The notes under the pieces: model-generated
Told to the model about the DNA's origin: nothing
The model's input: only the letters and a program-made list of their open reading frames with translations
Databases searched by the model: none
Shown: positions 11,556 to 26,133 of the stretch, in pieces
Position numbering within the stretch: position 1 is the first letter of the stretch
Layout: each line of letters starts with the position of its first letter
From: Butyribacter intestini
GTDB lineage: Bacteria; Bacillota; Clostridia; Lachnospirales; Lachnospiraceae
Length of the DNA stretch: 64,000 bases
NCBI GenBank assembly: GCA_001414325.1
Contig: LLKB01000007.1
Span: 80,871-144,870 of the forward strand
Reading direction: 5' to 3'
Made by a program: the position numbers and the translations under genes

Positions 11556-11595
11556 TGTATCAAAGAATATGAGTATAAGGTATATAAGAGGTGAT

Positions 11596-12618
11596 ATGCA
11601 AAAAGATAAGAGGGGGAATGAAAAGTTGAATACAGAAATAAAAAATGTGCTGAGTGCAGCAGATGATAAGGCACAATATGATGCGTATGCAAAGAAGCTG
11701 ATTGCACAAAAGAGTATATTAGCAAATATATTAGTAAAAACTGTTGGTGCATTTAAAGGTATGAATCCGAAAGATGTTGTAAAGTATATTGAAGGAGAAC
11801 CTGAAATAGGAGTAGTACCTATTGAACCTGGTATGACAAATGCAGAATATGTATCCGGTGAGAAGATAAAAGGATTTAATACAGAAGATAATGAAATAAA
11901 TGAGGGGATGATAAGGTTTGATATTATATTTTATGTAAGAATGCCGCTGCCGGATAAGTCCCAAAACAATTTGTCGAAGATTATAATAAATGTAGAATGT
12001 CAAAAAGATGAACCGTCAGCATATGAAATATTAAATAGGGCAATCTTTTATGTGAGCAGATTGATATCATCACAAAAAGAAAGAGATTTTGTGAATTCAA
12101 ATTATGATGATATAAATCAGGTGTTTAGCATATGGATATGTATGAATATGAAGTACAATAGCATGTCGCATATACATCTTGCAAAAGATGAGATTTTAGA
12201 GCCATATGATTGGAAGGGGAATCTTGATCTGATAAACATTGTGTTGATAGGTATAACCAATACATTGCCGGAATATGAAGAAAAATATGAATTACATCGT
12301 TTGATATGTACATTACTATCAAATGAACTGCCAGAGGCACAGAAATTTGATATTCTTGAAAAAGAATATAATATTCCGGTTGATACAAAATTAAGAGAGG
12401 ATGTGAGTGTGATGTGTAATTTAAGTTTAGGAATAGAAGAAAGAGCAGAGGCGAGAGGAGAAGCGAGGGGAGAAGCCAGAGGAATGAAAAGAACCAATGA
12501 AACGATTATTATAAATATGTATAAAAATAAGTTTACATTGGAACAGATTTCACTTGCAACGCAGAAAAGTGTTGAGGAGATTGAGCATATTATAGAAGAA
12601 AATTGCGTGACAATGTAG
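11596..12618 (+). CDS. Rpn/PD-(D/E)XK nuclease-family putative transposase
   Basis: 340 residues from ATG 11596 (AAGAGGTG just upstream). A TTG at 11626 with GAGGGGG 9 nt upstream is an equally good start and fits the usual family N-terminus. The protein has the family's conserved front (SAADDKAQYDAYAKKLIAQK, then FKGMNPKDVV and IEGEP) and a PD-(D/E)XK-like core, IRFDIIFYVRMP followed by IIINVECQKDE, giving the D...ExQ pattern. Near residue 285 it has a charged repeat (EARGEARGEARG). The C-terminus looks like a small helix-turn-helix (FTLEQISLATQKSVEEIEHII). Relatives promote RecA-independent recombination or are transposon-associated. It sits directly upstream of the CRISPR-Cas locus. Confidence 0.85.
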   Translation: MQKDKRGNEKLNTEIKNVLSAADDKAQYDAYAKKLIAQKSILANILVKTVGAFKGMNPKDVVKYIEGEPEIGVVPIEPGMTNAEYVSGEKIKGFNTEDNEINEGMIRFDIIFYVRMPLPDKSQNNLSKIIINVECQKDEPSAYEILNRAIFYVSRLISSQKERDFVNSNYDDINQVFSIWICMNMKYNSMSHIHLAKDEILEPYDWKGNLDLINIVLIGITNTLPEYEEKYELHRLICTLLSNELPEAQKFDILEKEYNIPVDTKLREDVSVMCNLSLGIEERAEARGEARGEARGMKRTNETIIINMYKNKFTLEQISLATQKSVEEIEHIIEENCVTM

Positions 12619-12693: not shown

Positions 12694-12802
12694 AAAAAGC
12701 ATCTTTTCTTTGTGTTGACATGATACTTCTAAAGTAGACGGATTAGATATAAAATCTGTTGCTTTAGAGGGGTATATCAGCACTAGGAGAGATGCTTTTT
12801 TT
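12694..12802. terminator. Long three-tier hairpin, probable bidirectional terminator
   Basis: Outer arms AAAAAGCATCT (12694-12704) and AGATGCTTTTT (12790-12800) end in a T run on the plus strand and, read on the minus strand, also end in a T run. Inside, GATAC/CTAAAG (12722-12734) pairs with CTTTAG/GTATATC (12762-12778), and CGGATT (12739-12744) pairs with AATCTG (12753-12758). It would end the Rpn gene on plus and the crRNA-like transcript on minus. The inner helices are more elaborate than a simple terminator needs, so a structured RNA is possible. Confidence 0.65.
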
Positions 12803-12812
12803 ATAGGGAAGT

Positions 12813-12896
12813 GAATGATTTCCATAATGTAGCTATTAAAATTGAAATAATTAAATATAATTTATTTTTTACATCCCAAAATGTATATTAAGTATA
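12813..12896 (-). ncRNA. Crisp repeat-like guide RNA gene targeting the cas promoter (CreR-like)
   Basis: On the minus strand, 12867-12896 is a degenerate CRISPR repeat (CTTAATAT-ACATTTT-GGGATGTAAAA; the array repeat ends GGGATGTAAAT), and 12813-12842 is a second one (TTTTAATAGCTACATTATGG; the array repeat starts GATTTAATAGGAACATAATG). Between them is a 24-nt spacer-like segment (12866 down to 12843); array spacers are 34-38 nt. Its first 21 nt, starting right after the ATGTAAAA handle, are identical to plus-strand 12973-12993 in the cas promoter. The transcript would start inside the first pseudo-repeat and end at the hairpin 12694-12802. Known precedent: CreR-type RNAs guide Cascade to repress cas promoters. 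That this locus works so is inference. Confidence 0.75.
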
Positions 12897-12919
12897 GGTG
12901 AAAAGAAAAAGATTGTAAA
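12891..12919 (-). promoter_or_regulatory. Promoter of the crRNA-like guide
   Basis: On the minus strand: TTTACA (complement of 12914-12919), exact 17-bp spacer, TATACT (complement of 12891-12896). A start about 7 nt later falls just before the conserved GGGATGTAAAA handle. Confidence 0.7.
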
Positions 12920-12969
12920 GAAAAAAGAGTGTAAGGATTAATTTTATTTTGTGTCGAATAAATATTCAT

Positions 12970-12993
12970 CCAAATAAATTATATTTAATTATT
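12970..12993 (+). promoter_or_regulatory. Presumed Cascade target (PAM plus protospacer) in the cas promoter
   Basis: CCA at 12970-12972 is followed by 21 nt (12973-12993) identical to the PAM-proximal part of the pseudo-spacer at 12846-12866. The protospacer overlaps the first two bases of the cas -35 box. A full Cascade footprint would cover the -35 and approach the -10. CCA is the PAM reported for the Clostridioides difficile I-B system, whose repeat also ends ATGTAAAT. Confidence 0.7.
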
Positions 12994-13019
12994 GACTTTT
13001 GATGTAAAAGTGATATACT
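12992..13019 (+). promoter_or_regulatory. SigA-type promoter of the cas operon
   Basis: TTGACT (12992-12997), 16-bp spacer, TATACT (13014-13019). It lies 75 bp before the cas6 start codon and no other ORF intervenes. Confidence 0.75.
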
Positions 13020-13093
13020 AAACTCAATCATTCAAATAATCAGAGTTGAAATGATTGAAGAAATAATTATGGATTATAGAAAGGGGTGAAAAA

Positions 13094-13816
13094 ATGAACC
13101 AGTTCAAATTAACTTTTAGTTTGGAAAAACAATTTTTGCCAAAAAGTTTGGAATCACTCATGATTAGTTTTTTTAAAGAGGCAACATTGAACTATTCAGA
13201 ACAATTTCATATGAGTCTTTACGACAAGAGCAAATCTGTCATGAAAAGTTATACATTTTCATATTATCTTCCAAATGCAAAGTTTCAAAAAGAACAGATC
13301 TCACTAGGGATGCCTTGTTTTGAGGTGTTCTTTAGTGACGCTGATCTTGAGGAAAGCATACAGATGCTCAAGTCTTTCAAGACTATGTATGGAAAAAGTT
13401 ATCCCATGAAGTGTAATTCTATAAAACTTGTGTCTATCGTTGCACAAAAACGAAAGGAAATAAGGGATTCAGAGATTGTTGTGAAAATGTTGAGTTCTCT
13501 TATTGTCAGAAGACATAATTCTGACGACAATTCCGATATTTATTACACTTATGAAGATGATGAATTTGGAGAAGTTTTGAGAGAAAATGTTGATTTTATG
13601 CTGAAAAAACTTGATGTACCGATTTCAACAGATGGTTTTTCAATTGTTCCAATAAAAGGAAAAAAGGTTGTTCAGTGTGTATTTGAACATATGATAGATG
13701 CTAATATAGGGATTTATAAATTGACTGGGACACCTGAACTTTTGAACTTTTTGTATATGGCAGGGTTAGGGTGCAGAAGGTCAGAAGGGCATGGTAAATT
13801 TGAAATCGTTATGTAG
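13094..13816 (+). CDS. cas6: CRISPR-associated endoribonuclease Cas6
   Basis: 240 residues. Cleaves the array transcript within each repeat to leave the 8-nt 5' handle (ATGTAAAT here). The RAMP-fold C-terminus has the typical glycine-rich region (GIYKLTGTPELLNFLYMAGL, then GCRRSEGHGKFEIV). A likely catalytic histidine is not certain from sequence; HMSLYD near 36 is a candidate. It has a strong RBS (AAAGGGGTG). It is first in the cas operon, so repression at the upstream promoter would affect crRNA processing and all interference genes together. If the pseudo-repeats upstream are processed, Cas6 would do it. Confidence 0.9.
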   Translation: MNQFKLTFSLEKQFLPKSLESLMISFFKEATLNYSEQFHMSLYDKSKSVMKSYTFSYYLPNAKFQKEQISLGMPCFEVFFSDADLEESIQMLKSFKTMYGKSYPMKCNSIKLVSIVAQKRKEIRDSEIVVKMLSSLIVRRHNSDDNSDIYYTYEDDEFGEVLRENVDFMLKKLDVPISTDGFSIVPIKGKKVVQCVFEHMIDANIGIYKLTGTPELLNFLYMAGLGCRRSEGHGKFEIVM

Positions 13817-13822
13817 AGGGGA

Positions 13823-15497
13823 GTGAAATATTTGGAGCCAATCAAGATTACAAAAGGTGATTTCCTGAAAAATGCAGGTATTGTAGGAATGTATAATATG
13901 CTTCATGTTTTCAAGGCAAGAAAAGGTGAGGATTTTTGGATTGATGAAGAAGAACAAGTACTCTGCATAAGTCGTGAGTTTGCATTAAATGCAGACTGGA
14001 CAGATATGTACTTTAAGGCATTTGTAGAAATTTATGGTCCAATGTGTACATATCAGGAAATTATAAATAGAATTGAAAAGTGCAGAGGAGTTATAGAAAA
14101 AGGAGATGGTATAGAAAAAAACAACAATGTAAAAGATGACTTGAAATACATTACAGATAAGATGACGTCGAGTAGTTACAAAAGTGGTTTTGCAAATATT
14201 CGTGACAAAATTGAAAATCCGGAAGTGTATGAAAATCTTAAAAGTAAAAAAATAAATATGAAAATGGAGTCTGATGAGATTCTGAAAAGATTGTCAGAAC
14301 TTGAAGATTTTTTGGAACAGCCATTGTGCAGGGAAACTTTTTGTATGAAAAGTGTAATTTACAACTACATAAATCGTTTTTGGAATGGCAAGAGTTTTTT
14401 GCTTAGGGCAAATGCGGCAAAAGATATGCGTGAGATGTTTGAAAAAGATTTTTCAAAACCTTTAAAAGATTATCTGCAAAAATCACATGAAAAATCTAAG
14501 GAATATTGTATTGAATGTAATACGATGATAGACAGTAAAGAAAAGATTTCAATTGCCTTTATGAATGATATGGCAGATGACCTCTCAAGAAAGCGTTCGG
14601 CATTTTGGAACTGCAAAGTTGATGCGTATATATGTCCTTTATGTGCTTATCTGTATGCACTTGTTCCTTTGGGATTTCGTCTGGTTGGAAATAAGTTTGT
14701 TTTTCAAAATATAGATTGTAGTCTTAAGGCATTAATAGATTCTAATAAAATGGGAACGGTAGTACTGAAAGAAAATGCAAAGCATATCGGAGAAAAGTAC
14801 GCTACATGGGTTGCAAGGACTTTAAATACTGTATTTAAATTAAAGATTAGAGAGCTTAACAATATACCTGTGATACTAAGAGGAACAAATGAAAAAGACA
14901 GATATACTTTCAATATATTACACAAAGATATTCTAAATATTCTTAAAGATAAGAAGATAATGGAATATTTAGAAAAATTATCAGAACATCCAAATGTGAA
15001 GATAAAAAATGACTTTTTAAATGTGTATGAAAGCTCGATTGAAAATCTGATAAGTTATAATAATCAGTACAGGCTTATAAACAGGCTTATAAAGGCAAGT
15101 ATTGAAACAGAAAGTATTTTGAGCAGGGCAGTGCTTGTATTTAAGATTCAGGTCAGGACATTTATGATTGTACAAGATGAAGGAGGTAATAAGAAAATGA
15201 ATGTATGGTCTATGAGAAATAGCGGATATGAATTGAGAAAAGCAATTTTAGCCGCAAAAGGAGTTGTTTCTGATGAGTGCATAAGAGGAACGATTTACAG
15301 ACTGACAAATGCACTTTCGGTAGGTAATACGGAAAGATTTATGGATGTTATTATTAGATTATATACATCAAGCAGACTTGATGTGCCAAATGGTTTTGTT
15401 GATATGTTACAGGATAGAGATAAATTCAATCAATATGGATATGCGTTTGTTTTAGGGTTAAAAGGAAGTCATCATGTAAGTAAGGAGGAAAACGAAA

Positions 15498-15505
<8 letters not shown>
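13823..15505 (+). CDS. cas8: Type I-B Cascade large subunit Cas8 (Cst1/CXXC-CXXC type)
   Basis: 560 residues from GTG 13823 (GAGGGG just upstream; TTG 13832 is an alternative). The family mark is a zinc-finger-like pair, YCIECNTMID near 228 and YICPLCAYLYALVPLGF near 270, typical of the Cst1/Cas8 branch of I-B (Tneap) systems. As the large subunit it should read the PAM and hold the R-loop during Cascade binding. Otherwise the sequence is poorly conserved, as usual for Cas8. It starts 6 bp after cas6 and overlaps cas7 by 8 bp, indicating translational coupling. It is the component that would have to accept the CCA motif at 12970-12972. Confidence 0.88.
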
Positions 15506-17094
<1,589 letters not shown>

Positions 17095-17143
17095 AGAAAA
17101 TATAATAGATACATTTTGGGATGAAAAATTTAGGGGGATGAAA

Positions 17144-19537
17144 ATGAATTTTTACGCTAAATCAAAAAAGCACATATTAAAATATAATGAAAAAGAGAAA
17201 GTTGAGAAAGTGTATTCAGATTTAATAGAAGAAATGGCTGACATACTTTCAAAAGCTGAGATTGCGGCATTGGAAAATGAGAAGAACAATATCATTAACG
17301 ATGTTTACGAAGAACAAAAAACACTTAGGGAACACTTAGACGAGACTGTTGAATGTGCGGAAAAATTTTTTGAACAGTATGGAAAATATTTTACTGAAAA
17401 GGAAAAAAATCTTATTTATATTGCGTGTAAATATCATGATGTTGGAAAGGCAAATCTTGTTTTTCAGGCAAAGCTATCTGATGGGGGAGATGGAAAGTAT
17501 AAAAATATAACACAGGTTCCGCATGGGTTTCTTAGTGCTTTGACTTTATCTTTTGAAAAATTGCAAAAAGAATTTGATGACATAACAAAGGAAGATTTTA
17601 AATGCCTTGTAACGGCAGTTTATTATCATCATACAAGGGATGATGAGTTTGAAGCGTGTGAAATAAGAGAGTTTTCAGAAAAATATTTTAAAGATTGTTT
17701 TAATGAATTTTGCAAAGCAAGTGAATGGAAAACCAGTATGAGAAATCGAGGCAGGGAACTCCTTTTTGTCAACTCAAAAGCATATCCTAATGTTGTGATA
17801 AATGAGGATATATGGCAAGAATATATGCTTATAAAAGGAATGCTAAATAAATTTGACTGGACAGTAAGCAGTGGAAAAATTGAATCCGAGGAAAAGGTTG
17901 ATTTTGAAAAGAAGATACTGATAAATAATATTGATAAAAGATATGGAAAAAATATGAGAGCGGTTCAGAAGTATATGAGAGAAAAAGCGGACAGCAATGT
18001 TGTCATAATCGCACCTACAGGTTCGGGAAAAACAGAAGCAGCCTTATATTGGCTTAACGGAGAAAAGGGGTTTTATACATTGCCGCTTAAAGTGTCTTCA
18101 AATGCAATATATAAAAGAATACGGGAGGAATATAATTTTAAAGATGCTGCGTTGCTTCACTCTGAGAGTTTGCAAAAGTATATAGAGGAATCTGCTGATG
18201 AACAGGAGAAAGATGCGGAGGAAAAGTCTGCAAAAGAAAAGTTTGAAAAGACAAAAATGTTTAGTGCACCATTAACAATATCTACTGTAGACCAGTTGTT
18301 TTTATTTGTGTATAAAGCATTGGGAACAGAAATAATGGCAGCAACATTGAAATATTCAAAGGTTATAATAGATGAAATACAGTCATATGAACCAAGAATT
18401 GTTGCGGCACTTATATATGGTTTAAAAACGATTTCACAGATGGGAGGAAAATTTGCTATTATGACAGCAACACTCCCACCGGTATTGCTTGATTTTATGA
18501 ACAAATATGGATTGATAAAAAATGAGACATATTGTTTTGAAGATTTTTCGGCAGAAAATGTGATGCAGAGACATATGATAAAGTTATATGAACAGGAATT
18601 TAATCTGGAAGAAATCGCAGAGGAATCAAAAACAAAAAAAGTGCTTGTTATATGCAACACTGTAAAAAAAGCACAAGAAACATATCGTTTGTTGGAAGAA
18701 TATACGGACAATGTATATTCGTTACATGCAAGATATATTAAAAAACACAGAAAAATGCTTGAAAAAAATATAATGCAGTTTTCGGAAAACAGAGAAAGCA
18801 TAGGTATATGGGTGACAACACAGATTGTAGAGGCGAGTCTGGATATAGACTTTGATATACTTTATACGGAAATGTGTACCGCAGACAGTTTGTTACAGCG
18901 TATGGGACGCTGCAATAGAAAAGGTAGATATATTCCGTCAAAACCTAATATAAAAATTTATAAAACAGAAAATGCAAAAAGACAAGTAAAAAACAGAATT
19001 AACAACACAGGAATATATTATCGGGATTTATTTGAGCGTTCTTGGGAATGTATGGGCGATTATGAGAATCAGCTATTTACTGAAGAACAGAAAATAAATT
19101 ATATCAACGAAGTTTACGATACGGAAAAAATAGTAAATACTGAATATTATAAAGAAATAGAAGCATATCTTGAATATTTTCAGAAACTATCTGTGAACGA
19201 ACTGAGTAAAATGGATGGTAAGAAAAAATTCAGAATGATAGAGAGTGTGTCTGTGATGCCTGATAAAATTTACAATGAAAATGAGGATTTAATAGAAAAG
19301 TATCAGAGTGAAATATACGATAGACATTTAGGGAGAGAAGCCAAAGAAATATTAAAAACAAAGCTTGATGAATTGACTTTAAGTGTAACTATATATAATA
19401 AATATTCAAAGGAAGGTATAGAAGGCGTTATCGAAAAAACGGATATACATCGTACAGATTTTGTGTACGATTTTGATGAGGAGACGGGAAAAGGTATCGG
19501 GTTATCGAAAACGGAGAGAGAGGGAAACATACTTTAA
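17144..19537 (+). CDS. cas3: CRISPR-associated nuclease-helicase Cas3 (HD plus DExH fused)
   Basis: 797 residues. Degrades target DNA after recruitment by Cascade. An HD nuclease domain is N-terminal (FYAKSKKH start; CKYHDVGKAN near 97; YYHHTRDD near 160), followed by superfamily 2 helicase motifs: APTGSGKTEAAL near 290, DEIQ near 410 in place of DExH, a TAT motif (IMTATLPP), and QRMGRCNRKG near 584. The start was chosen at ATG 17144 with GGGGG 8 nt upstream; a longer frame from 17054 overlaps cas5 and lacks a good RBS. All catalytic motifs look intact, so the system should be active for interference. Confidence 0.94.
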   Translation: MNFYAKSKKHILKYNEKEKVEKVYSDLIEEMADILSKAEIAALENEKNNIINDVYEEQKTLREHLDETVECAEKFFEQYGKYFTEKEKNLIYIACKYHDVGKANLVFQAKLSDGGDGKYKNITQVPHGFLSALTLSFEKLQKEFDDITKEDFKCLVTAVYYHHTRDDEFEACEIREFSEKYFKDCFNEFCKASEWKTSMRNRGRELLFVNSKAYPNVVINEDIWQEYMLIKGMLNKFDWTVSSGKIESEEKVDFEKKILINNIDKRYGKNMRAVQKYMREKADSNVVIIAPTGSGKTEAALYWLNGEKGFYTLPLKVSSNAIYKRIREEYNFKDAALLHSESLQKYIEESADEQEKDAEEKSAKEKFEKTKMFSAPLTISTVDQLFLFVYKALGTEIMAATLKYSKVIIDEIQSYEPRIVAALIYGLKTISQMGGKFAIMTATLPPVLLDFMNKYGLIKNETYCFEDFSAENVMQRHMIKLYEQEFNLEEIAEESKTKKVLVICNTVKKAQETYRLLEEYTDNVYSLHARYIKKHRKMLEKNIMQFSENRESIGIWVTTQIVEASLDIDFDILYTEMCTADSLLQRMGRCNRKGRYIPSKPNIKIYKTENAKRQVKNRINNTGIYYRDLFERSWECMGDYENQLFTEEQKINYINEVYDTEKIVNTEYYKEIEAYLEYFQKLSVNELSKMDGKKKFRMIESVSVMPDKIYNENEDLIEKYQSEIYDRHLGREAKEILKTKLDELTLSVTIYNKYSKEGIEGVIEKTDIHRTDFVYDFDEETGKGIGLSKTEREGNIL

Positions 19538-19612: not shown

Positions 19613-20065
19613 ATGATAGATATATATACAGATAAGAAAAATTGTGAGGACTGGATAATACAAAACGACCTCTACTTTAATTTAAACACCTGTAATGAGG
19701 AGATGACAGAAAGAGATATAAATCTTATCAAGCAGGCGGATGATGCTGTATTAACACCAGACAAGCATATTCAGACAAAGTTCGGTTTGGGAACAATCAG
19801 AAATTTATCATCAGGATGCAAAACTTTGTTAAATATTATAAAACATCCGGATAAAGTTGTATGTGTAGAGGAATGTGGACCTAATGTACTAAAAATAATA
19901 TTTGAGATGGATAATATTAAGATATATATGTCAAGACCAAGTTTTGTTTATGTTTCGGATAATACAAAAATCAGGTTTAATGGTGATGAGATTGTGACAG
20001 GGAGTGCAGGATATAGTGCATGGTGGAGTAAGGAATATGAGAGGAGGGAAAAAGATGATTTATAA
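19613..20065 (+). CDS. DUF4869-like hypothetical protein
   Basis: 150 residues, acidic and soluble, no membrane segment. Segments LGTIRNLSSGCKTLLNIIKH and VEECGPNVLKIIFEM recall the DUF4869 family common in Lachnospiraceae (a conserved 'LSGGxKTL ... CGxNC' layout); the match is from memory of the pattern. The function of that family is unknown. It has a strong RBS (ATGGAGGG) and its last 11 bp overlap the ATP-binding gene that follows. It belongs to a coupled trio inserted between cas3 and the CRISPR leader; it is not a recognised Cas family. Confidence 0.7.
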   Translation: MIDIYTDKKNCEDWIIQNDLYFNLNTCNEEMTERDINLIKQADDAVLTPDKHIQTKFGLGTIRNLSSGCKTLLNIIKHPDKVVCVEECGPNVLKIIFEMDNIKIYMSRPSFVYVSDNTKIRFNGDEIVTGSAGYSAWWSKEYERREKDDL

Positions 20066-20456
20066 AAATATTTCATTTAAAGCAGCTCCATTTTCGTATG
20101 AATTATTTTTTGATGATAGAATAACACTGGTTGGCGGAGACAGTGGAACAGGGAAAACAGTGTTATATGAAATACTTGAGGATCTTAAGTTGACAGAGGA
20201 ATATAATGCAATAAAATTGTTTAATTACAAATCAGAGAATATGAAAGAAAATCTGAAAAAATGCAGGGATTGTTTTATTGTTATTGATAATGCAGACATT
20301 CTGATTGACGATGATATAAGAAGATTTATTAATTTTGAGTTTTCTAATCAGTATATGCTTTTTTCAAGAAATTGTGATGGCTTGAATGTATCAGATAAAA
20401 GTTTTAAAATATTGCAGCTTGATGACAATAAAATAACACTTCAAGATGAGTTATAG
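20055..20456 (+). CDS. Small P-loop ATPase, accessory gene of the CRISPR locus
   Basis: 133 residues. Walker A GGDSGTGKT near residue 26 and a hydrophobic Walker B-like strand CFIVIDNADIL near 73 are clear. The protein is too short for a full AAA+ or ABC unit and ends soon after a strand-rich segment (FKILQLDDNKITL). The start was chosen at ATG 20055, which has GGAGGG 7 nt upstream. It overlaps the gene before by 11 bp and its stop codon abuts the gene after, so the three are translationally coupled. It might power or gate the neighbouring toprim-like protein, by analogy with ATPase plus toprim defence pairs; this is inference. Confidence 0.75.
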   Translation: MIYKNISFKAAPFSYELFFDDRITLVGGDSGTGKTVLYEILEDLKLTEEYNAIKLFNYKSENMKENLKKCRDCFIVIDNADILIDDDIRRFINFEFSNQYMLFSRNCDGLNVSDKSFKILQLDDNKITLQDEL

Positions 20457-20479
20457 TGTGTGTAGAAATGGGGAATAAA

Positions 20480-20908
20480 ATGAAATATTTATGGACAGAG
20501 GATACAGGTGCAGGATTATATTTTTGGCAGTTGGCAAATGAGCTTTTCTTTGGTGGCGAATTAGAGGTAGAAAGCAAAGGGAGCAATCAGGGGATATTAG
20601 ATGCAGTATCACATATAGATGCTAATGATAATAATATATATTATATTGCATTTGACTATGTGGTTGATAATCAGGATATTCGGAATAAATACAGATTACT
20701 CAGAACATATGCTGCCAAATCGGATAGCCACATTGTAATACTTGATATGATTTGCTTTGAATATTTGATTTTAACTTTTGATAAACTTGTGGAATGGACA
20801 GGGACTGGTAAAAAGGATAAGGTAAAGATGCGTATGGAAATACTGAAAACAATAGAAAATCACCATATTAATTTATCGAAAATACAAGACGAGAAAACTT
20901 TAAAATAA
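20480..20908 (+). CDS. Hypothetical protein, possibly toprim-like, third gene of the accessory trio
   Basis: 142 residues from ATG 20480 (GGGG 7 nt upstream); GTG 20456 or ATG 20468 would add 8 or 4 residues. The layout is WTEDTGAGLYFWQLANELFF, then EVESKGSNQGILDAV, then YIAFDYVVDNQDI and HIVILDMICFEYLI. An early acidic residue, a Gly-rich turn and a hydrophobic strand ending in FDYVVDN resemble a toprim or OLD-type nuclease core, but key residues are not secure. It follows the small ATPase within one coupled unit. I do not recognise the family with confidence. Confidence 0.65.
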   Translation: MKYLWTEDTGAGLYFWQLANELFFGGELEVESKGSNQGILDAVSHIDANDNNIYYIAFDYVVDNQDIRNKYRLLRTYAAKSDSHIVILDMICFEYLILTFDKLVEWTGTGKKDKVKMRMEILKTIENHHINLSKIQDEKTLK

Positions 20909-21354: not shown

Positions 21355-24300
21355 GATTTAATAGGAACATAATGGGATGTAAATAATTCTATAACGGGGT
21401 TGCAAAAAGCGGCAGACAAATGATTTAATAGGAACATAATGGGATGTAAATTTGAGTAGGTATTTTATCATATAGCATACACTCATGATTTAATAGGAAC
21501 ATAATGGGATGTAAATAAAAGAATATCTTTATAAAGTTCTTCACTGATATTCGATTTAATAGGAACATAATGGGATGTAAATTTCTATACTCGTAATATA
21601 GCAATAAATGTACTGAGATTTAATAGGAACATAATGGGATGTAAATTCTTATGTTGCTGTCACCTTGCGACCATGGTACATGATTTAATAGGAACATAAT
21701 GGGATGTAAATGTCGAAAAACTCTTTGTAAATGAAAATGAAGTGTTGATTTAATAGGAACATAATGGGATGTAAATATCATTGTGTTAGCGGCTAAGCAA
21801 AAATAAACGAGGATTTAATAGGAACATAATGGGATGTAAATATCAATAGAACCGATAAAATCAGCAATAGCCTGCCCGATTTAATAGGAACATAATGGGA
21901 TGTAAATTCAAAGCCTAAGAGAATATTTTTGTAAAGCTCGTCGATTTAATAGGAACATAATGGGATGTAAATATGTGTTTATTTACTTTCCGTATGTTGT
22001 ATATATGGATTTAATAGGAACATAATGGGATGTAAATTCGTTTGTAAGACCGAAGTTATTTTGCATTTTTAGATTTAATAGGAACATAATGGGATGTAAA
22101 TAAATGTGGCTATTAAATACAATTACTAAATATAAGATTTAATAGGAACATAATGGGATGTAAATTATTCCCACCGGTCAAATTGCGACCGATGAAAGTT
22201 GGATTTAATAGGAACATAATGGGATGTAAATACAGCTGAATTGTGTGAAGCTGAATTACTCGCACAGCGATTTAATAGGAACATAATGGGATGTAAATCA
22301 CTTATTCCGTTTGACCTTACAAAATTATAATCAGATTTAATAGGAACATAATGGGATGTAAATGCGGATATTGCTATCGCCTTGCGACCACGGCACATTG
22401 ATTTAATAGGAACATAATGGGATGTAAATCCGCATAAAAGAGGTGAAAAAAGATGTGGTATTCTGATTTAATAGGAACATAATGGGATGTAAATACTCAG
22501 CAAGGTTTTGTATATATGACAGGTATTACGATTTAATAGGAACATAATGGGATGTAAATCAAGATGTAGCGGTTATTGAGAATAAAAACCACTAGGATTT
22601 AATAGGAACATAATGGGATGTAAATTGGTTTACTGTAATGTCAGCAAAAGTTATTTTTTCGATTTAATAGGAACATAATGGGATGTAAATTTTAACAAGG
22701 AGGTCTATAACTTTATAGACCTCTCGGATTTAATAGGAACATAATGGGATGTAAATACACAACTTTATAAATTACAAGATAGTGGGTTAGATTTGATTTA
22801 ATAGGAACATAATGGGATGTAAATATCACATACGAAAACTTTTTGTCAGAAACTGAAATAGATTTAATAGGAACATAATGGGATGTAAATAACAGTTATA
22901 TAACATAGCAACAAATCTATTTTCAGATTTAATAGGAACATAATGGGATGTAAATCTCAACTTTATAAATTACAAAATAGCGGCTTAGATGATTTAATAG
23001 GAACATAATGGGATGTAAATTTTTCAAGAATTGATAAACACTCGTAACTTATGTAGAGATTTAATAGGAACATAATGGGATGTAAATTTTGAGCGTGAAC
23101 GGTTAGCGTTATATCTGTTGCACGATTTAATAGGAACATAATGGGATGTAAATATGTTTAAGTTTGTTGTGACGGTTATTGAAAAATGGATTTAATAGGA
23201 ACATAATGGGATGTAAATAGAGTAACTGTACAAGAATATTGTAATTGACATGCCGATTTAATAGGAACATAATGGGATGTAAATTTTGCCCTTACTCGCT
23301 AACTTAGAGTAGTGATTTAGATTTAATAGGAACATAATGGGATGTAAATAGATAGTCTAACATCTTTACTTTTCCCGTCAAAAACGATTTAATAGGAACA
23401 TAATGGGATGTAAATTTCAAGGTGATTATACTTCTGTTTGGGGAGTTGGGTCGATTTAATAGGAACATAATGGGATGTAAATTTACTTTATCTAATGATA
23501 TGTGTAAAAATTTGGAATTGATTTAATAGGAACATAATGGGATGTAAATCATTACCATCTATCATTGTGTTGGCGGCTAAACAAGATTTAATAGGAACAT
23601 AATGGGATGTAAATTTGTCACTGAAAAAATCGGTGCTTAAATTAAATTTGATTTAATAGGAACATAATGGGATGTAAATGTGAAGAATATAGACAGATGA
23701 GTAAATATGATAGAGGGGATTTAATAGGAACATAATGGGATGTAAATATGATATAAATGATTTATCTGATAAACTCAATGCTGATTTAATAGGAACATAA
23801 TGGGATGTAAATCAGTACTATCAGATGTTTTTACATAAACAAAAACACGATTTAATAGGAACATAATGGGATGTAAATCTCACTACATCCATTTGAGCGT
23901 GTACCTCTATCGGATTTAATAGGAACATAATGGGATGTAAATAGATAATCTCATATCATGTTCATATCGACTGACGAGATTTAATAGGAACATAATGGGA
24001 TGTAAATTCTTTTTTGAAGAATTTGTGCTTATGGAAGATGATGATTTAATAGGAACATAATGGGATGTAAATTAATTGTCTGGCAAAAGTAATTTTGCAT
24101 AATTTAAGATTTAATAGGAACATAATGGGATGTAAATCGAAATAAATCAGCAATAGCATCACTAAGATTAAAGATTTAATAGAAACATAATGGGATGTAA
24201 AGTAGCAACTTTATTTGAAAGTGCTTCACCAGTCCAGATTTAATAGGAACATAATGGGATGTAAAGAGTGACTATGGCGTAAAATTTGAAAAAGATACAA

Positions 24301-24599
24301 ATGGATTTAATAGGAACATAATGGGATGTAAAGGTCATCATGTTTGTGACGGCATACGGAAGAAAAAAACGATTTAATAGGAACATAATGGGATGTAAAG
24401 TTGAGTCACGAAAGATATTCGGATAATTTTACTTTTGGATTAATAGATACATATTGTAATGTAAAGAACTCAACAAAAAGGATTTCTTCACACTCAACAA
24501 AGATTTAATAGAAACATAATGGAATGTAAAGCCTATGGCTTCTGCAACTGAATTTTTTGCACCATTACCAATTTAATAGAAACATAGTGGAATATCAAC
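21355..24599 (+). CRISPR. Type I-B CRISPR array, 50 repeats and 49 spacers
   Basis: Repeat of 30 nt beginning GATTTAATAGGAACATAAT and ending GGGATGTAAAT; spacers are 34-38 nt, mostly 35-36. Repeats 1-43 are identical. From repeat 44 (24173) on the last base is G instead of T, and repeats 44, 48, 49 and 50 carry further changes (repeat 48 at 24438-24466 is one base short; repeat 50 at 24570-24599 ends ATATCAAC), marking the old, leader-distal end. Transcription is rightward, giving a 5' handle ATGTAAAT. It lies between the interference genes and cas4-cas1-cas2. Several spacers are related in pairs (5/16, 7/34, 3/9, 22/25). Spacer 21 (22691-22726) is itself palindromic. Confidence 0.99.
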
Positions 24600-24629
24600 T
24601 GCCAAATATTAAGCATGGAAGGAGAAAAA

Positions 24630-25127
24630 TGTATGGAAGAAAGAATAACAGGAGTAATGATTTATTATTATTTTGTGTGTAAGCGTAAATTGTGGTATTT
24701 TTGTCATGAAATTAATATGGAATCAGGTAATGAGGATGTGCAGCTTGGAAAGATTTTGGATGAGACAAGTTATGGAAGAAGTGAGAAACACATTCAGATT
24801 AATGGAGAGATTAATATAGATTTTATAAAAGAACATCGTGAGTTACATGAGATTAAAAAAAGTAAGTCAATAGAGCAGGCAGGAATATGGCAAGTTAAAT
24901 ATTATCTGTATTATTTAAAAAAGCGTGGAGTAGATGGATTAAAGGCAAAAATTGATTATCCATTATTAAAAGAAAATGTTATGGTTGAATTATCAAAAGA
25001 TGACGAAAATCAGCTACAATTTGTAATTGGAGATATTGTTAAAATTAAAAAGGAAAAAAGACCGCCAATTATGAAGAAAACAAAGTTGTGTTCAAAATGT
25101 GCATATCGTGATTTGTGTTTAATTTGA
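24630..25127 (+). CDS. cas4: CRISPR-associated exonuclease Cas4
   Basis: 165 residues. Trims prespacers and helps select PAM and orientation during acquisition. It has the single N-terminal cysteine (VCKRKLWYFCHE near 15) and the C-terminal trio CSKCAYRDLC that ligate the Fe-S cluster, with an intervening RecB-type core (QAGIWQVKYYLYYLKKRG, the QxxxY motif). The start was chosen at ATG 24630, 9 nt after GGAG; the upstream ATG 24615 lacks an RBS. It begins about 30 bp after the last degenerate repeat, and the adaptation genes may share array read-through transcription. Confidence 0.93.
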   Translation, partial: CMEERITGVMIYYYFVCKRKLWYFCHEINMESGNEDVQLGKILDETSYGRSEKHIQINGEINIDFIKEHRELHEIKKSKSIEQAGIWQVKYYLYYLKKRGVDGLKAKIDYPLLKENVMVELSKDDENQLQFVIGDIVKIKKEKRPPIMKKTKLCSKCAYRDLCLI

Positions 25128-25140
25128 GGGGAGTGTGTCT

Positions 25141-26133
25141 ATGAAGCAAAGTTTTTATGTTTACAATGATGGTGAAATTAAAAGAAAAGATAATACATTG
25201 CAATTTCGCACATATGAGGGAGAAAAAAGGGATATTCCGATAGAGCGGATTTCAGATATTTATGTTATGTCAGAAATGTCATTTAATACAGCATTTTTAA
25301 ATTATATTTCTCAATATGGTATTCCTATTCACTTTTTTAATTATTATAATTTTTATACGGGAAGTTATTATCCGAGAGAATCATTGCTTGCCGGACAGTT
25401 ATTGGTTAATCAGGTGGAATACTATCAGGATAGTGTGAAAAGACTGAAAATTGCTCAAAAAATCATAGATGCGGCAACTTTCAATATATATAGAAATTTA
25501 AGATATTATAATGGCAGAGGTAAAGATGTTTCAAAATGGATGAATGAAATAGATGGACTGCGGAAACAGATTGAAAAGACAAATACGATAAATGAACTTA
25601 TGGGTATTGAGGGAAATATAAGACAACAATATTATGCGGCATGGAATGTTATAGTGAATCAGGAAATAAAGTTTGAAAAAAGAGTAATGCACCCACCTGA
25701 TAATATGATAAATTCGTTGATATCATATGTAAATTCATTGATTTATTCAAAAACATTGAGCGAGGTTTATCATACACAGTTAAATCCGACAATCAGTTAT
25801 CTGCATGAGCCTGGTGTAAGACGTTATTCGTTGTGTCTAGATATATCTGAAGTTTTTAAACCTTTAATAGGTGACAGATTGATTTTTTCATTGTTAAATA
25901 GACAACAGATTACAGAAGAAAGTTTTACGCAGGAGTTAAATTTTTTACATTTGAAAAAAGAAGCATCAAAGCTGATTGTTAGGGAACTTGAAAATTCATT
26001 AAAAAAGACAATTAAACATAAGGAATTAGGACGACAGGTTTCTTATCAATATTTAATTCGTCTAGAATTATATAAATTGATAAAGCACATAATTGGAGAA
26101 AAAGAATATGAAGGGTTTAAAATATGGTGGTAA
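25141..26133 (+). CDS. cas1: CRISPR integrase Cas1
   Basis: 330 residues. Integrates prespacers at the leader-repeat junction with Cas2. The conserved metal-ligand triad is present: E157 in GIEGNIRQQYY, H222 in SYLHEPG, and an acidic residue in CLDISEVFKP near 236-240. The N-terminal beta domain (MSMKQSFYVYNDGEIKRKDN) and the helical C-terminus are full length. The start was chosen at ATG 25141 with GAGGGG 8 nt upstream, 13 bp after cas4. With identical repeats over most of the array, acquisition has evidently been active. Confidence 0.97.
   Translation: MKQSFYVYNDGEIKRKDNTLQFRTYEGEKRDIPIERISDIYVMSEMSFNTAFLNYISQYGIPIHFFNYYNFYTGSYYPRESLLAGQLLVNQVEYYQDSVKRLKIAQKIIDAATFNIYRNLRYYNGRGKDVSKWMNEIDGLRKQIEKTNTINELMGIEGNIRQQYYAAWNVIVNQEIKFEKRVMHPPDNMINSLISYVNSLIYSKTLSEVYHTQLNPTISYLHEPGVRRYSLCLDISEVFKPLIGDRLIFSLLNRQQITEESFTQELNFLHLKKEASKLIVRELENSLKKTIKHKELGRQVSYQYLIRLELYKLIKHIIGEKEYEGFKIWW

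Follow-up and report, generated by a model that had tools for sequence, protein, structure and literature searches.

The window (the whole stretch of Butyribacter intestini DNA that was analysed, 64,000 nucleotides) carries a type I-B locus with the gene order cas6-cas8b-cas7-cas5-cas3 on the plus strand at 13094–19537, made up of cas6 (Cas6b, 13094–13816), cas8b (13823–15505), cas7 (Cst2/DevR, 15498–16382), cas5b (16366–17094 from its ATG start; the list of open reading frames gives an earlier TTG at 16354) and cas3 (HD and helicase, 17054–19537). The reading frames of Cas6, Cas8b, Cas7, Cas5 and Cas3 are all open. A CRISPR array with 50 repeats (GATTTAATAGGAACATAATGGGATGTAAAT) and spacers of 34–38 nt lies on the same strand at 21355–24599 and is followed by cas4 (24615–25127) and cas1 (25135–26133), both on the plus strand; a 92-codon ORF beyond cas1/cas4 occupies the place of cas2 and was assigned by place alone. 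Three ORFs of about 150 codons lie between cas3 and the array (19613–20908), of which one has a sub-threshold match to DUF4869, another a sub-threshold match to AAA_22 and a weak one to LmuB, and the third no match. The gene upstream of cas6 (11569–12618) gave a weak, sub-threshold match to PDDEXK_2 and contains the stretch EARGEARGEARG. The unit reported here sits between the end of this gene at 12618 and cas6, with the array 8 kb off. The same layout of the unit was found in Eubacterium sp. MSJ-13 (Clostridia; cas6 92%; L030 and L002, apparently one contig and counted once).

Degenerate repeats and the guide between them

Two degenerate copies of the array repeat had been described on the minus strand around a 24-nt segment, and both were confirmed to the base in sequence and coordinates. 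The first copy (psiR1, 12896–12867, TATACTTAATATACATTTTGGGATGTAAAA) agrees with the array repeat at 18/30 positions, with 12/15 in the 3' half, which retains the handle ATGTAAAA (12867–12874), and 6/15 in the 5' half. The retained half terminates in GGGATGTAAAA and is followed directly by the 24-nt guide (12843–12866, minus strand), the spacer analogue of a predicted CreR RNA, and then by the second copy (psiR2, 12842–12813, ATTTTAATAGCTACATTATGGAAATCATTC). This copy also agrees at 18/30 positions; it keeps the 5' part (16/21) and has lost the handle end (2/9). Full-length likeness to the repeat proves nothing by itself, since other places on the minus strand of the window reach 18 or 19 of 30 (four with 12 mismatches and one with 11). 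The weight rests instead on the handle half, the promoter-matching guide immediately adjoining it and the recurrence of both in relatives. Among 11 relatives measured, the 3' half of psiR1 was kept at 10–14/15 and the 5' half at no more than 9/15 except in L011 (12), and psiR2 agreed at 11–17/21 in its 5' part and at 2–6 of the last 9 positions; the window and most of these relatives show complementary decay of the two copies. For the L006 locus the stretch taken (L034) held no array and the pseudo-repeats were compared with the repeat of L033; those of L048 were compared with the repeat of L032.

An ordinary array has conserved full repeats and spacers of 34–38 nt; here the repeats are 18/30 identical and the spacer is 24 nt long. 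The unit has the parts of a CreR, with ectopic degenerate repeats and a spacer analogue beside the cas operon and outside the array. A search of Rfam gave a single match, to a microRNA family; at 24.4 bits, where the gathering score is 140, it was taken as noise. A second candidate guide at the start of cas3 (17099–17128; 22/30 against the repeat, also in MSJ-13) was rejected: it had no convincing target, the best site behind CC anywhere in the window matching at 13/17 positions, and 22 was reached in 2/40 runs of a Markov null.

The guide target and the predicted promoters

Counted from the first base past the handle, nucleotides 1–21 of the guide are identical to plus-strand 12973–12993, and the remaining 3 nt differ. 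The initial annotation had given a 21-nt identity running into a −35 box and preceded by CCA; the identity was borne out exactly, and the CCA, a PAM-like motif, is present at 12970–12972. The box belongs to a predicted cas promoter on the plus strand (12992–13019, 10/12 consensus bases) with TTGACT at 12992–12997, a spacing of 16 nt and TATACT at 13014–13019, lying 74 nt before the cas6 start, and the target overlaps TTGACT by 2 nt. The site has the form of a CreR target, a PAM and a seed match in the cognate cas promoter, found here as 21/21 nt behind CCA and into the predicted −35 box. When 12897–13093 was shuffled 2000 times with dinucleotides preserved and the guide fixed, no prefix match exceeded 15 (reached once), compared with the 21 of the native sequence. 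In the organism's own genome (3.6 Mb, 12 contigs), the target was the only zero-mismatch site for CCN plus guide with positions 6, 12 and 18 left free; the next-best sites were the guide itself (2 mismatches, without CC) and two further sites with 3 mismatches.

CCA is a PAM of the related C. difficile I-B system. For an estimate within the sister arrays, 617 spacers of 15 arrays were compared with 15 chosen phage pieces, which gave matches of at least 80% for 17 spacers (L033, 1; L036, 8; L037, 8). CCN preceded the protospacer for 13 of these 17 (CCA 6, CCT 3, CCG 3, CCC 1), the other four being preceded by CAA, CTT, ATT and GCC; the first place found was counted for each spacer, and the spacer with CCC has four tandem places. 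Phage records numbered 53 for L037, 6 for L033 and 9 for L036, and the L031 array gave no record against the phages. The window array gave 4 weak records (80–90% identity), which were not used for the PAM. Within it (21385–24569), the spacer pairs 5/16, 7/34 and 22/25 resemble pieces of related phages; three patterns, each made from the two similar spacers of one pair, had 0 matches in viral contigs.

A creR promoter was predicted on the minus strand (12891–12919, TTTACA-17-TATACT, 10/12 consensus bases). The six bases with which psiR1 begins form its −10 box, 16 nt ahead of the handle, in both the window and MSJ-13; L003 has a weaker promoter pair at the same distance from the handle and L009 a pair at 19 nt, and in several relatives a promoter-pair scan showed nothing convincing as a creR promoter close to the handle. 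Both promoters are consensus matches only, and a promoter scan of the window found 6 sites with 4.4 expected. Downstream of psiR2, an imperfect palindrome of 107 nt (12694–12800), which has T-runs on either strand, shows 73% identity to its reverse complement and folds far better than shuffles (z −6.5 on the minus strand, −10.6 on the plus strand). It is possibly a terminator shared by creR and the upstream gene; a simple terminator scan of the window listed none at 12694–12800.

A matched promoter of this kind could also point to a CreA antitoxin, for which the promoter would mainly drive a small toxin (CreT) in the leader, with the guide silencing the toxin. The cas6 leader does hold a 12-codon ORF (13051–13089) with ATA and AGA codons that ends at the ribosome-binding site, and known CreT toxins, as described in passages of PMC8501985, are tiny ORFs with rare codons. 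The next full gene, however, is cas6. In MSJ-13 the leader ORF has 15 codons and the same endpoint, and only the last four codons, which overlap the ribosome-binding site, agree; past the predicted start site, the L003 leader contains no ATG except that of cas6. The leader comparisons in MSJ-13 and L003 lowered the likelihood of this toxin-antitoxin reading, which we now regard as highly improbable.

Guides and targets at related loci

Relatives of Cas6 were found in 2/28 genomes of the genus, 28/397 of a family sample and 28/392 of an order sample, the own genome being counted each time, and in 2/3, 1/3, 2/5 and 1/1 genomes in four further genus searches. For the survey, all stretches with at most 2 mismatches from GGAATGTAAA were taken from 50/52 loci (n = 76; L062 and L068 left out), and the 17 nt after the handle were scored by their best CC-preceded site near cas6 with equal weight for each position. 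At 18 of the 50 loci, the window included, a handle-like half-repeat was followed by 17 nt that match at 14–17/17. Besides the window and L021, a doubtful case in which the target and the upstream part of the locus's own psiR1 overlap, 16 related loci have the same kind of match between a guide and their own upstream region. None of the 76 candidates scored 12–13, and 58 scored 7–11. The targets of all 18 loci are preceded by CCA or CCT, which is not independent evidence for the PAM since CC was required. Within the 18, the window and L002 are not independent of each other, nor are L004 and L048, and three loci (L055, L058, L061) belong outside the family. The remaining 32/50 loci, taken regardless of whether cas6 is the first gene, show no guide-target pair. 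At L021, a guide-like segment and the overlapping site lie in direct orientation 100–140 bases upstream of cas6.

Scores of 14 or more were reached by 2/2000 random guides, by 1/268 when the guides of the 17 loci (without L021) were swapped between loci and by 1/445 when spacers from the arrays of 10 such loci were used as guides. Judged by these sequence comparisons, the guides fit their own region and not one another's, and a chance match in AT-rich DNA was rejected on the shuffles, the swapped guides, the array spacers and the random guides. The same 17 loci, without L021, had been selected by an unsupervised pair scan of CC-preceded targets at 49/52 loci (L007, L062 and L068 were skipped for too little upstream DNA), a choice that is biased as its scoring omitted positions 6, 12 and 18; the equal-weight survey recovered these loci and added L021. 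Equally strong pairs without a handle were seen in the unsupervised scan at L054 (17.5, an inverted repeat), L048 (14.5) and L010 (14.0).

The 31 mismatches in the 18 loci fall mainly at position 6 (12), position 12 (8) and position 17 (6), with one each at 5, 9, 10, 14 and 15. Positions 6 and 12, bases that are not read by a type I complex, jointly account for 20 of the 31. This clustering bears on another reading, in which the match is an inverted repeat acting as a protein-binding site or RNA hairpin and the repeats are incidental. Guide and target are indeed inverted relative to each other in the window, a reading against which stand the mismatches at 6 and 12 and the start of the match directly after the handle; it was rejected because the copies are direct repeats in L058 and L061, and we consider it extremely improbable.

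Two close pairs of loci carry matched changes. Between MSJ-13 and the window, T is replaced by C at positions 8 and 17 in both guide and target, and over 21 nt the MSJ-13 guide and its target differ at 6, 12 and 18 only. L004 and L048, which belong to one genus, agree in their guide and target changes at 5, 7 and 8, with position 6 of L004 as the lone mismatch within 16 nt. A match retained at 18 of 50 loci (one doubtful) with matched changes in two pairs is the pattern of a CreR, and the covariation of spacer and promoter among relatives, which the initial annotation had put forward as a check, supports its CreR-like interpretation at the level of sequence; for that interpretation the relatives are the deciding evidence. 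They also bear on whether the unit is the remnant of a decayed mini-array without present function, its match left over from an old self-targeting spacer. Both repeats are degenerate (18/30 each), as a remnant would be, but guide and target change together in the two close pairs while 6, 12 and 18 drift, and the two repeats have decayed in a complementary way that is seen again in relatives, so that a remnant appears very unlikely.

The position of the site relative to the promoter varies. Its end falls at or within the −35 box of the top-scoring pair in the window and in L002, L003, L004, L048, L006 and L018; it starts at the −35 box in L009 and covers the −10 box in L058. In L011, L015 and L055 it lies on the opposite strand, downstream of the best promoter pair, and it is less clearly placed in L005, L008, L019, L054 and L061. 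In L011 (G371) and L055 (G474), the coding strand carries the guide unit, which follows the best promoter-like pair and precedes cas6, and owing to this placement one transcript could carry the cas genes and the possible repressor.

Proposed regulation and comparison with known systems

With a guide that matches the cas promoter over 21 bases, the unit is likely to yield a small RNA through which the CRISPR complex would lower its own expression. We judge it very probable that the unit encodes a crRNA-like CreR, which would direct Cas8b-Cas7-Cas5 to the predicted cas promoter and repress cas transcription. The predicted creR promoter within psiR1 would start an RNA near 12884, from which Cas6 cutting or trimming would produce the 8-nt 5' handle; the 3' end would be processed in psiR2. 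The RNA would then load Cas8b-Cas7-Cas5 (Cascade) and bind CCA plus 21 nt, and the R-loop would cover the −35 region of the predicted cas promoter. The short guide (24 nt, against 34–38 nt in array spacers) and the mismatches past position 21 would keep the R-loop short, so that Cas3 would spare the chromosome; this sparing is an assumption, since 21 paired bases exceed the 10 that are critical in CreA. Repression would ease and cas expression would rise once Cascade is drawn off by array crRNAs or by anti-CRISPR proteins. Counting against the proposal are the 32 loci with no such pair, the equally strong pairs that lack a handle, the promoters being consensus matches only, and a psiR1 without most of the 5' half, the part bound by Cas6 in known cases.

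More tentatively, CreR may act here as a compact autonomous regulator, with its promoter in psiR1, an RNA start about 10 bases before the handle and an R-loop of 16–21 nt up to the −35 box. In L011 and L055 it would be embedded in the leader on the coding strand, with the site a short way past the promoter; the cas genes and the repressor would then share one transcript, and guide and promoter would be free to co-evolve except at every sixth base. The loci would extend RNA-guided cas autoregulation to a set of type I-B systems, most of them from a single bacterial family, and their species-specific guides, which fit the upstream region of their own locus at all but every sixth base, amount to a natural co-evolution experiment. 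If the proposal is true, these bacteria would sense when anti-CRISPRs take Cascade away or crRNAs are in surplus, and would then raise cas expression, which would be relevant to phage work and to the use of their native CRISPR systems.

The primary CreR paper is reportedly that of Liu et al. 2023 (Cell Host Microbe). A literature search by title and start of abstract, with the texts of Liu 2023 and Shmakov 2023 lying outside it, retrieved no paper on the guide of this lineage. In their passages on CreR, three reviews (PMC12737573, PMC13131331 and PMC12948488) describe it as a crRNA-like RNA that regulates cas genes, printed for I-B, I-E and V-A, in keeping with the earlier remark that such guides are known in some type I and V systems; repression is relieved there by array crRNAs or anti-CRISPRs that draw the complex away, and the lineage is named in none of these passages. 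As in CreR so described, there are degenerate repeats beside the cas operon, a partial match to the cas promoter and an effector as the proposed repressor. Unlike CreR in those passages, the predicted promoter lies inside psiR1 and 16–21 nt are matched.

For the haloarchaeal I-B CreA, passages of PMC8501985 report that a change at 6 or 12 has no effect and that the other ten of the first twelve positions matter. For CreA, passages of PMC9458426 report that psiR1 conserves the Cas5-binding bases and psiR2 loses them. The unit resembles CreA as described there in a psiR1 with and a psiR2 without the handle, in tolerance at 6 and 12 and in a partial promoter match; unlike CreA, the guard of a toxin gene in those descriptions, it matches a promoter in front of cas6, where no conserved toxin was seen. 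Shmakov et al. 2023 treat CRISPR-derived regulatory elements, which, to judge by the title of that work, are likewise RNA regulators derived from repeats and located near CRISPR-Cas loci. Repression by Cas9 of its own promoter, as covered in part of a review, likewise places an RNA-guided effector on its own promoter; Cas9 is a type II effector with a tracrRNA-derived guide, whereas the present locus is type I-B and its guide crRNA-like. The CreR kind is already known, I-B included, and the locus would add another member to it. The layout with a promoter in the repeat and the leader-embedded guides of two relatives (L011 and L055) are possibly variant traits. Cas9 autorepression uses a long form of tracrRNA.
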